Source: Chloroflexota bacterium
GTDB taxonomy: Bacteria > Chloroflexota > Anaerolineae > Aggregatilineales > J027
Assembly (NCBI GenBank): GCA_010092845.1
Contig: JAADYW010000159.1
Span: 1-32,265, forward strand
Length of the DNA: 32,265 nucleotides
Direction: 5' to 3'
Under the pieces are notes generated by a model, which had not been told where the DNA came from, searched no databases, and saw only the letters and a program-made list of their open reading frames with translations. How positions within the stretch are numbered: position 1 is the stretch's first letter; each line of letters opens with the position of its first letter. This document shows positions 5,589 to 26,270 of the stretch, piece by piece. A program made the translations under genes and the position numbers.

Positions 5589-5721
5589 GGTCTTGTCTCC
5601 TGTGGTTTTGGGTTGATTGGGTTTTGAGGTCTTTGTTCCTGATGGCAGCCGTAGGACTTGCCTCACGAACACTCTAACTTTGCCGGTCGGATGTTGCTAG
5701 CGTGTAGAAACCATAGAATTT
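5589..5721. other. Upstream region of the small secreted protein
   Basis: Non-coding sequence holding the ribosome site (AGGAGA) of the minus-strand gene at 5588 and presumably its promoter. The ORF track extends that gene through here, but the added residues look like translated leader and not protein. Confidence 0.4.
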
Positions 5722-6035
5722 GCGCCAGGGGACACCCTGCTTTAGCGGGGTGGGGAAGGGCGCTTTCCTCCATGTAAACAAGCTGTAAAATGAGTGTGAA
5801 CCGCGGAGAGGTGCGGAAATGCTCATCCACATGATTGCGGTTCGGTCCAAAGCCGGAGCATGATGAAGGCTAGCGGGCAACGTCGTACCGGAGAAGCACT
5901 GGGTACCCAAAGCAAAGGACGTCCCGGAAATGAGACGCCCTCCCCTGATTGACAGGGACTTCCAATGAAGCGTAATGTTCCGTTGGCTGGAGCGCCAACG
6001 CGCCCAAACTAGCAGCCACTATAGGCAGTCCCTGT
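5722..6035. ncRNA. Strongly structured non-coding segment, possibly an IS200/IS605-type remnant or omegaRNA-like
   Basis: Four perfect or near-perfect stems crowd this 314-base stretch. First is ACCCTGC-TTTA-GCGGGGT (5734-5751) inside GCGCC/GGCGC (5722-5726, 5759-5763). Second is GAACCGC/GCGGTTC (5798-5804, 5837-5843). Third is CGTTGGC/GCCAACG (5981-5987, 5994-6000). The last is ACAGGGACT/AGTCCCTGT (5952-5960, 6027-6035), which encloses the third. No ORF here looks like protein. The C-rich hairpin with a TTTA loop resembles, from memory, right-end hairpins of IS200/IS605 elements whose 3' ends encode the TnpB guide RNA, but no tnpA or tnpB is present. Alternatives are a free-standing small RNA or a non-autonomous element. 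The structure is visible directly; the identity is inference, and strand is undetermined. Confidence 0.4.
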
Positions 6036-6298
6036 TTGCCTGCGGTTTCTTATGGGAAGATTAGGACTAGATCAGGATATCGGGGTGGTGTACCGCATAC
6101 ATTGACGAAATACCTTCATGAAAACGGCAGTTTACATAGCTACTGTGGTTAGTATACGGATTAGGCGTAAGATCAAGCGCAAGTTTGTTGATGTTTTGGC
6201 GTAAAACCAGGCGGATAAGGTAAAGCTTCTTTAGGAAATGATCAATGCTTCAAGTCCTGGCTACCAGAAGGCTTCAAGGCGTCGGTTGGATGGCAACG
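6036..6298. other. Intergenic stretch with no recognised feature
   Basis: Between the structured segment and the stop of the large regulator there is AT-richer sequence without a credible ORF or long hairpin. Only a short repeat of GCTTCAAG (near 6246 and 6270) stands out. Confidence 0.4.
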
Positions 6299-9200
6299 CT
6301 ACTCGCGGGAGCTGGAGTCAATGCATGCGAGACGCTCGCGGAGGGCAGCCGCCAGCGAAGGCAGGGAATCCGGCGTGCTGGAAACAGCTTCACGGAGCGG
6401 AATGCCCGCGATGTGCCGGGCTCCAATAGCATCACGACGCATCGCCTCGCTAGCGGAGGGATGTCCAATGATCGCTGCGCTCAGCCAGTGCACTTCCTCG
6501 CTCAGTCCCCGGCTAGCAAGGCTCATCAGGGCCGCGTTCAGCACGTCCAGAATTAAGCCCTCAGCGCCGATCTCTACAGCCACGTCCAGGGCAACACAGA
6601 GATCAGCTTTGATTTCATGCCAATCCCAGCCTCCCTGTTGCCCACGGCTACGCGCCAGATTGGCCAGAGCCAGGGCGATGCCCCACCGGTCACTGATCTC
6701 ACGGCTAAGTGTGAGACTCTCCGTGTAGTACTGCTGCGCCGCGCTATGATCGGGCTGAGCAGCCGCAACCAGGCCCAGGTTGTTCAGCGCAATCCCAATG
6801 CGGCGCCGGTCATTGTGTACACGATGGATCTGCAGGCTCTCCTGGAGCAGCGGATAGGCGCCCGTATGGTCCCCTTGCTCGTAGAGCACCAGGCCTAGGT
6901 TGCTGAGTGTATTGGCGATCTGGCGCTCGTTACCAGTTTTCCGAAAAAGAGAGAGGTTCTCACGGAAATAGACTGCCGCTGTAGCTGGGTCCCCGCGCTG
7001 TTGGGCGATAACGCCGAGACTATTGCGGATGTTGGCGATGTAGCGCGCGTCGTTGAGCTGTTGTGCGTTTTCCAGACACTCGGTGAACAGGTGCATCGCG
7101 GCGTCGCGATCCCCTTTGTCGCTCAGTAGACATGCCGTGAAGTAGCGTGCCACCAGTCTTGCCTGTGGTGCTGTTGCTGGTAAGTCAGCCAAAGCTTGAT
7201 GGAAGTCGCCCTCGGCAGCGGTGAAGTCCCCCAAACGGTAGGCGAATACACCCCGGTAGGTTCGTAACCGGCCAAGCAGAATCAGGTCTGTGTCCTCATT
7301 CTCCGCTTCGCAAGTTGACAATGCCAGACTGAACAGCTCTGCGCCTTCTGTGAGACGCCCTTGCCCGATGAGAAATGTGTACACTGGTGACAGCATCTCA
7401 CCGAGCACTGTCTGATCGCAATGGGCTGTTGCCCACAACCATGCGCTGCGTATGTCTGCCCAGCTGGCCGCGAATCTTCGCATGGTATCTGCGTTATTTC
7501 CACTTATCAGGTCCGTTTGCTGTTCTGCGGCCAACCCTGTGAAATAGTGGCTATGTGCGGCACGAGTTTCTTCTACCAACGTTGGGTAGGCTTCGTAACG
7601 CCTGCGGACAAATTGCCGGATAAGGGGATGTATATCATAGTGCGGCTGCTCTGGGCGGCGCAGCAGAGAATGCTCGACCAGCGTTACCAGGTCTGGCAGC
7701 TTCACACCGGCTGCGTAATGAGCAGCTTCGAGAGAAAACGGTGTCTCGAAGACGGCGAGCCGCATCAGTGCTCGCTGCTGGGATGGTGTCAACCGCTCCC
7801 ATGAATACCCGATAGCAGCTTCCAGACTACGATGCCGTAGGGGAATGTTCATCTCTCGATGGGCCAGCTCAAGATTGTGTCCAAGTTCTGCAGCAATCTC
7901 AGATACACTAGCGGCGTGGGTCCAGCTTGCCGCCAATTCGATGCCGAGGGGCAATCCCTCTACCAGGCGGCAAATCTGGCTAATGGTCGCCTGTTCGGTT
8001 GTCGAAAGGGACTCCTGGATCCCCGCGCGGTGCATACGTTCCGAGAAGAGCCATAGTGCGGCGAAATCGTGCATTTCGCCACGCTGGGCTGGATATGGCA
8101 AGCCTTCGAGGGGGAGGGTCGTCTCTCCCTGTAAGTTAAGCCGCTCACGCGAGGTTACCAGAATCCGCAGGGCTGGACAGTGGCGTAGCAGCCGGCTGAG
8201 TGTGTCTCGCCCTGGTAGCACATGCTCGAAATTGTCCAGAACCAGCAGGATTTCGCACTCGCGTAAGTGTGATTGCAATTGCTGGTAGCTGGCCTTTCCT
8301 TCCAACCCCAGGGCATTCTGTAACGTGCCAACTAGCTCGCTTGCATCTACTAGGCTGGCCAGTGGCACGAAGACAATACCATCAAGGAATAGCTCAACGC
8401 TGCGTGATGCGGCCTCCAGGGCCAACCGTGTTTTACCCACACCGCCCATACCCGTGATAGTCATCAGCCTCTGGGTGGGATCCCCTAGCCAAGCATTCAG
8501 CATCGCCAGTTCTGCTTCGCGCCCAACAAAGGATGTTGCGAAACGTGGCAGGACGGGTGCGCGTTCTTCCCGTAGCTGCAAAATCCGGCGGTAAAGTGCC
8601 TCCGTCTCCGGCATGGGGGCAACTCCCAGTTCGTCGGCCAGGATGCGGCGGCAGGCTTCGTATTGTGCCAGGGCTTCAGTGTACTGACGCTTGCGCCCTA
8701 GAAGGGTCATCAAAAGACGATGCGAGGCCTCGCGCCAGGGGTCAAGGGCCAGCAAACGGTGCGCTGCCTCTATGGCCGGGAGCGTGTTCCCCTGGCGCGC
8801 GTAGCGATCTGCTAGCCTTTCGAGAACCACTACCGCAGCCCGTCGAAAGCGCTCGCACTGACCAAGTAACCACTCCTCGAACGCCGGTGCATCCTTAAGC
8901 ATGAAACCATTCATGAAATCGCCGCTATAAAGGTCGCTAGCAGCCTCAAGCTGGGTGAGGTCCGCTGCCTGGTCTTGAGAGGTAGCCAGCAACTCAAGGG
9001 CATCGATCCACAGCGGAAGATCGGTATCGAGCGTTACGGTCTCGCGCGACGTCACAAGGTAGCCACCGATAAGCTTCCGCAGATTAGAAAGCGCCATCCG
9101 GAGATTGGTGCGCGCGTCGACGCCCGGCATCTCCGCCCATAACAAGCCGGTCAGGCTATCACGTTGATGGGGTAGGTTGGCCAGTGAGAGATACGCTAGC

Positions 9201-12175: not shown

Positions 12176-12205
12176 AAGAGGTTTCACCGATTGCAGTAAG
12201 AAGAT

Positions 12206-12244
12206 TGTGCCGGTTAGGGCAGTGGGTTTGCCTTGACCGGCACA
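12206..12244. terminator. Bidirectional terminator hairpin between convergent operons
   Basis: A 9-bp perfect inverted repeat TGTGCCGGT/ACCGGCACA (12206-12214, 12236-12244) encloses a further AGGGCA/TGCCTT stem. It stands between the DUF6882-like gene (+) and the hydrogenase operon end (-), where a bidirectional terminator is expected. Confidence 0.7.
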
Positions 12245-12288
12245 TCGAATGTATTGCAAGCGTTGCGCTGCGCCAAGTCTGGTGCAGC

Positions 12289-25633: not shown

Positions 25634-26097
25634 TCATTCCCGCATGGGGCACTTCTCGCTTTCGTACTCAACCGCAATAGTGATGTACTCGAGAGGCAAG
25701 CTATCAATTGCCCGCTTCCCGTCCTCCCGAATGCTCACAATCTCGTCGCTGGATGTTCCATCAGCGGCTTCACGGCTGACCGCGACGTGAATGCTGCGCG
25801 GAATGTGCTGTTTCTCGCGGTTGCGTCGGCCCGGACGGGGCCGTCAGGCGCTAACGTGGCCGGTTGCGGCGTGCGTAGCCGTGACGAGTAGCGTGTGTCG
25901 CTTTGCTTCTCTGAAACGTGTTCAAGGTACCAGGCTAGCTCTAATGAAAGGCTATCGCCCAGGTCGTGCAATGCATCGGACAGGATGGCGACACTGTTGA
26001 TGAGCAGTCCCCCAACAATCTCCGCCAGGGTGCAAGGTGAGATTCAGGAACAAGGCTGTCCCAATATCGCTGTGGTTATCCTGGTCCGGCTGTTCAT
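25634..26097 (-). pseudogene. Cation diffusion facilitator (CDF) efflux pump remnant
   Basis: This gene is absent from the ORF track as such. From ATG 26097 one frame reads 'MNSRTRITTAIL', is broken by TGA at 26046-26044, and resumes as 'TLAEIVGGLLINSVAILSDA' followed by 'LHDLGDSLSLELAWYLE'. That is the first half of transmembrane helix 2 and the metal-binding HDxxD of CDF zinc/cadmium exporters. The alternate frame covers the break as 'TALFLNLTL', matching the CDF helix 1 'FLNLxF'. After about 25840 the middle is missing. The C-terminal dimer domain continues in another frame as 'SDEIVSIREDGKRAIDSLPL' and 'EYITIAVEYESEKCPMRE', stop at 25634. So at least two frameshifts plus an internal deletion of most of the membrane part have destroyed it. 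Intact relatives are about 300 residues. Confidence 0.75.
25827..25857 (-). repeat. REP-like palindromic element, copy 2
   Basis: Read on the minus strand, the box ACGTTAGCGCC (25857-25847) is followed 3 bases on by the hairpin CGGCCC-CGTCC-GGGCCG (25843-25827). The box is identical to copy 1 at 10230-10240, while the hairpin arms differ in sequence but not in form. It sits at the internal deletion point of the CDF pseudogene. Confidence 0.5.
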
Positions 26098-26203
26098 GTT
26101 GGTGTGTCGCGTTGTTCCCTGCTCACCGACTGATGCTGTCCCCATTGCTGTTCAAACCCGGTCGGTTTTCGTAGTTTGGTGTTGCACGTAGTCAATATGG
26201 CGG
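26098..26203. other. Short intergenic stretch, no feature recognised
   Basis: Contains the upstream part of the CDF remnant on the minus strand. No ribosome site or promoter stands out, in keeping with a dead gene. Confidence 0.3.
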
Positions 26204-26248
26204 GCAAACCTGCGTGTGGAAGCAGATTCCTCCCGCACGCAGGTTTGC
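26204..26248 (-). terminator. 13-bp perfect hairpin after the LysM/GerMN gene
   Basis: GCAAACCTGCGTG (26204-26216) and CACGCAGGTTTGC (26236-26248) pair perfectly around a 19-base loop, 22 bases after the stop at 26271. No T-tract follows, so it may act by stalling or by protecting the mRNA end. Confidence 0.65.
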
Positions 26249-26270
26249 GTGGTGCATTGTTCACACGGGC

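Follow-up and report, generated by a model that had tools for sequence, protein, structure and literature searches.

Both ends of IS608 carry a hairpin that is bound by TnpA, and a guide sequence at the 5' foot of the hairpin pairs with the cleavage site (PMC5934647; PMC7290912). The guide RNA of ISDra2 TnpB (reRNA or omegaRNA) is made up of the tnpB 3' end plus the right end (RE) of the element (PMC8612924), and an ends-only IS605 element is known in Halanaerobium hydrogeniformans (PMC7290912). In the 32,265-nt stretch of Chloroflexota DNA analysed here (the window), the hairpin at 5722-5763 is almost certainly the left end (LE) of an IS200/IS605-family insertion sequence, this copy of which has been left as a solo fragment. 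It is like the left ends of IS608 and ISDra2 in being a subterminal imperfect hairpin that, in its family, stands directly 5' of a Y1 HUH tnpA; the family is further like these elements in having tnpB downstream and a related RE hairpin, and in being multi-copy and patchy. Unlike the IS608 and ISDra2 elements, the copy in the window is a solo LE lacking tnpA, tnpB and RE.

The segment 5722-6035 is set in a 626-bp gap between two minus-strand ORFs. The ORF on one side, whose start can be placed as far up as 5672, encodes a secreted protein of at most 181 aa; the gene on the other, ending at 6299, encodes a BTAD/NB-ARC/TPR regulator. No gene covers the segment, so the remark in the preliminary description that no ORF explains it is borne out, and the stems reported there are all present, including the 9-bp pair around a 7-bp hairpin (Table 1). 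These stems fall into two groups, the compound hairpin at 5722-5763 and the weaker stems between 5798 and 6035.

Table 1. The IS200/IS605-type remnants of the window and the sequence beside the left end.
Feature	Position	Strand	Remarks
Solo LE, IS200/IS605-type insertion sequence	5711-5775	+	Copies 90-100% identical; same segment directly 5' of tnpA in C118 (L009) and G012 (L084)
LE hairpin	5722-5763	+	Outer stem 5722-5726/5759-5763, inner stem 5733-5740/5745-5752, loop TTTA 5741-5744; DNA fold; compensatory changes; z about -3
Unique intergenic DNA beside the LE	5776-6035	.	No relatives; no sign that it belongs to the element
Stem GAACCGC/GCGGTTC	5798-5804/5837-5843
Nested inverted repeat	5952-6035		9-bp pair ACAGGGACT/AGTCCCTGT (5952-5960/6027-6035) around 7-bp hairpin CGTTGGC/GCCAACG (5981-5987/5994-6000); single copy; function unsupported
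tnpB 3' end and presumed guide-RNA (omegaRNA) scaffold, same IS family	25764-25880	+	93% identical to C167

The assignment to a left end follows from the other copies of the sequence. A DNA search of the organism's own genome (3.86 Mb in 312 contigs) finds nine further copies of the 65 bp at 5711-5775, at 90-100% identity, which brings the total to ten; at six of the nine, the contig stops soon after or inside the element, a behaviour typical of repeats in an assembly. In contig C118, about 30 bp separate the end of the LE from the ATG of an intact tnpA, whose product is a Y1 transposase of 129 aa (NCBIfam IS200/IS605 transposase, E 1.7e-42; ISHp608 TnpA in the PDB, 3e-29); tnpB follows (guided_TnpB, E 1.6e-82). 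In genome G012, which belongs to the same order but to another family, the LE is diverged and stands directly 5' of a 72%-identical tnpA; the element is complete here, in the order LE-tnpA-tnpB-RE, and measures about 1.68 kb, its ends being placed approximately. Sequences related to both flanks occur in other genomes of the group. In C118 and G012 alike, the LE thus forms the 5' end of an element encoding a Y1 HUH TnpA. The named records that share this LE are MAGs of Anaerolineae. Viral contigs scanned with exact patterns gave no match, and a pattern match in Bacteroidetes (L035), located within a coding gene and devoid of a hairpin, is attributed to chance.

At its right end the family has another sequence, CTCCCCGCTTTAGCGGGGAGAGTTGTCAC, which occurs in six places in the own genome. 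This RE has the TTTA-loop core in common with the LE, which is why the preliminary description thought of a right end; likewise, a C-rich TTTA-loop hairpin is carried at both ends, hence the resemblance to a guide RNA that was noticed there. Of that proposal, the link to IS200/IS605 TnpB elements stands, while the identification as a right end or guide-RNA scaffold does not: ISDra2 belongs to the same transposon family, but its guide RNA is built from the tnpB 3' end and the right end, whereas the hairpin at 5722-5763 is a left end, immediately upstream of tnpA in the intact copies. The segment aligns to the LE, and homology to the scaffold is found instead at 25764-25880.

The structure of the LE is conserved together with its position. 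The hairpin folds with z of about -3.2 on one strand and -3.4 on the other, which is more than chance, and its homologues agree. Across nine distinct LEs, 98.3% of the cells are paired, compared with at most 57% in slid controls. Five of the 13 hairpin pairs have changed on both sides, a level reached in none of 500 shuffles, through few independent changes that each occur in one sequence; the compensatory changes are seen in both helices in C118, and in G012, where most of the inner stem is replaced. The copies in G012, and most of those in G344, retain the first bases CCATAG and a hairpin with a short T/A-rich loop. CCATAG also makes up the first bases in most copies when flanks are compared, the flanks themselves showing a bias to T only; the boundary is placed approximately. 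Covariation, proposed in the preliminary description as a check on the stems, is thus present in the LE hairpin, while 5776-6035 offers no homologues to compare. Searched with a covariance model of the LE, 8 of the 298 genomes in the class have copies, six of them more than one, with up to 17 per genome; this patchy, multi-copy distribution is the pattern of a mobile element.

The copy in the window is a remnant. Its identity with the other copies breaks off abruptly at 5775, and it differs from the common consensus of the own-genome copies at one position within the hairpin, 5758 (T to G). The whole window has neither an RE hairpin nor an RE terminus, and 5776-6298, the approximately 500 bp after the LE, shows no decayed tnpA or tnpB; the right end expected of a complete or a non-autonomous element is therefore absent from this copy, which should be unable to move. 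The observation that no tnpA or tnpB lies nearby holds locally, but a 3' remnant of a tnpB of the same family is present at 25764-25880. This fragment is cut just before the right-end hairpin, and no intact tnpB accompanies it; the window thus preserves two distinct fossils from a single IS family, separated by 20 kb.

By analogy with IS608 and ISDra2, the single-stranded LE of an intact element would fold into the hairpin, to be bound by TnpA, the Y1 HUH transposase, which would cut just 5' of it during one-strand excision and insertion. Loss of tnpA, tnpB and the right end would leave the LE as a solo fragment. We infer that the solo LE probably arose by such a deletion of the rest of the element, its right-hand junction being one at which no relative carries an empty or intact site for comparison. 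The sequence that follows, 5776-6035, would most likely be ordinary host intergenic DNA, with its stems lying beside the LE by happenstance. A comparable remnant occurs elsewhere in the own genome (C310:4560-4620; L010 / L021), where LE and RE are fused within the common TTTAGCGGGG core into one hybrid hairpin, about 51 nt long; this hairpin is a scar from the deletion of a whole element body.

Reduced versions of the element are known from other loci of the family. L003 (own genome, C272) consists of LE, tnpA tail and RE in 186 nt; four loci in G012 (L098, L110, L115, L104) combine the LE with an unrelated interior of about 183 nt, the 90-nt scaffold and the RE, one of them with an extra insert. 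Like L095 in G313, they all have the LE and a right-hand segment of about 90 nt that runs through the RE, and have neither a tnpA nor a tnpB gene. The start of this retained right-end segment agrees to within about 2 nt between separate lineages of short elements, and it looks as if the scaffold were a unit retained in the short non-autonomous forms. The insert in L104 (G012, C30), about 180 nt long and located about 230-410 nt after the LE start, has inverted repeats GCTCGACTTTGCACAT / ATGTGCAAAGTCGAGC and an apparent short target duplication; it looks like a nested MITE.

These forms bear on a second reading of the locus, in which the whole of 5711-6035 is a PATE-like non-autonomous element of IS605 type, with an LE, non-coding cargo, a degraded or unrecognised RE, and mobilisation by a TnpA acting in trans. 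The window copy is like the PATE-like elements of H. hydrogeniformans (PMC7290912) in being reduced, with the LE hairpin retained and tnpA missing, and the relatives just described show that such elements exist in the family (L003, the four G012 loci, L095), with a length of 325-337 nt close to that of the reported segment. L003, L098 and L095 also retain a tnpB-tail/right-end part, as do the Halanaerobium elements (PMC7290912); unlike PATE-like elements reduced to their ends, however, the window copy is without any right end and hence is not ends-only. Neither an RE-like hairpin nor the terminus GAGAGTYGTCAC follows the LE, the interior is unlike all other interiors, and the sequence after 5775 is single-copy in the genome. 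This makes the reading very improbable, and the suggestion of a non-autonomous element keeping its guide-RNA part falls with the finding that the segment has neither a guide-RNA part nor a right end, although members of precisely that type are present at other loci of the family (L003; L098, L110 and L115 in G012; L095 in G313).

Just as improbable is a new structured RNA (a riboswitch, a small RNA or a cis element) of the neighbouring genes that is built from the stems of 5776-6035 and beside which the LE inserted by chance. The segment is non-coding, and part of it folds well: 5950-6037, around the nested repeat, reaches z -4.3 on the plus strand, within limits picked by hand, and 5776-6040 reaches z -2.3 on the minus strand. 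Against this, homology searching, which had recovered 5711-5775 repeatedly in the own genome, finds no second copy of 5776-6035 there, no match among 400 genomes of the Chloroflexota, nor in sequence collections of phages, plasmids and E. coli, and no homologue in 101 relatives beyond pieces of 28-31 nt; these last, in G026, G037 and G068, have E 0.003-0.009 per genome over the 101 genomes and are at the level of chance. No Rfam 15 family scores above its gathering score in the segment, matches to lncRNA and molybdenum-motif families (E 0.1-8) being due to chance.

Nor does the folding stand out. The whole 352-nt segment has z = -1.2 on the plus and -2.3 on the minus strand, and the 265 nt of 5776-6040, with -1.1 on the plus strand beside the minus-strand value given above, are unexceptional. 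Three perfect inverted repeats of at least 7 bp are matched by 34 of 300 shuffles; the stems other than the LE hairpin are weak compared with shuffles. The nested 9+7 pattern recurs in 2 of 300 shuffles but was chosen post hoc, and the nested inverted repeat at 5952-6035 is mildly unusual and unsupported by comparison. An unbiased scan along the complete window gives z <= -3 for 24 of 1464 stretches of 88 nt, none of them inside the reported segment. The new structured RNA envisaged in the preliminary description is thus left unsupported, its part outside the LE having neither homologues nor exceptional folding.

A further reading, in which the LE was captured with a structured intergenic RNA of unknown kind (5776-6035) to yield a cargo-bearing non-autonomous IS605 element whose RE was lost or remodelled, is very improbable as well. 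The idea that 5776-6035 holds the 5' part of a group II intron springs from a mere visual impression that the sequence is rich in purines and stems, and from the presence of group II introns in 19 of 101 related genomes. It is dropped as a negligible prospect, since there is no match to domain V or D1-D4, no group II RT in the own genome and no similarity to the introns of related genomes, the missing domain V and RT weighing more than the silence of the D1-D4 models, a weak test that finds 3 of 18 known introns in a positive control where domain V finds 13 of 18.

Two other hairpins were observed in the window. The strongest of the scan, at 12189-12276 (z about -6.7 as RNA), has a near-perfect long stem, TGTGCCGGTTAGGGCA / TGCCTTGACCGGCACA, and lies just after a DUF6882 gene; it is single-copy in the genome and has no T run. 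The intergenic inverted repeat GCAAACCTGCGTG / CACGCAGGTTTGC at 26181-26268 is strong on both strands and is possibly a bidirectional terminator-like hairpin.

With the hairpin at 5722-5763 read as a solo LE, the locus counts as an unremarkable transposon relic rather than a new RNA. A candidate for a new RNA is thereby removed, and the case shows how a solo transposon end can mimic one. As a by-product, a well-delimited IS200/IS605 family of Chloroflexota emerges, whose LE covaries and whose RE is defined; among its members are short non-autonomous elements that have dropped tnpA and tnpB and retained the 90-nt right-end segment, the expected site of the guide-RNA scaffold.
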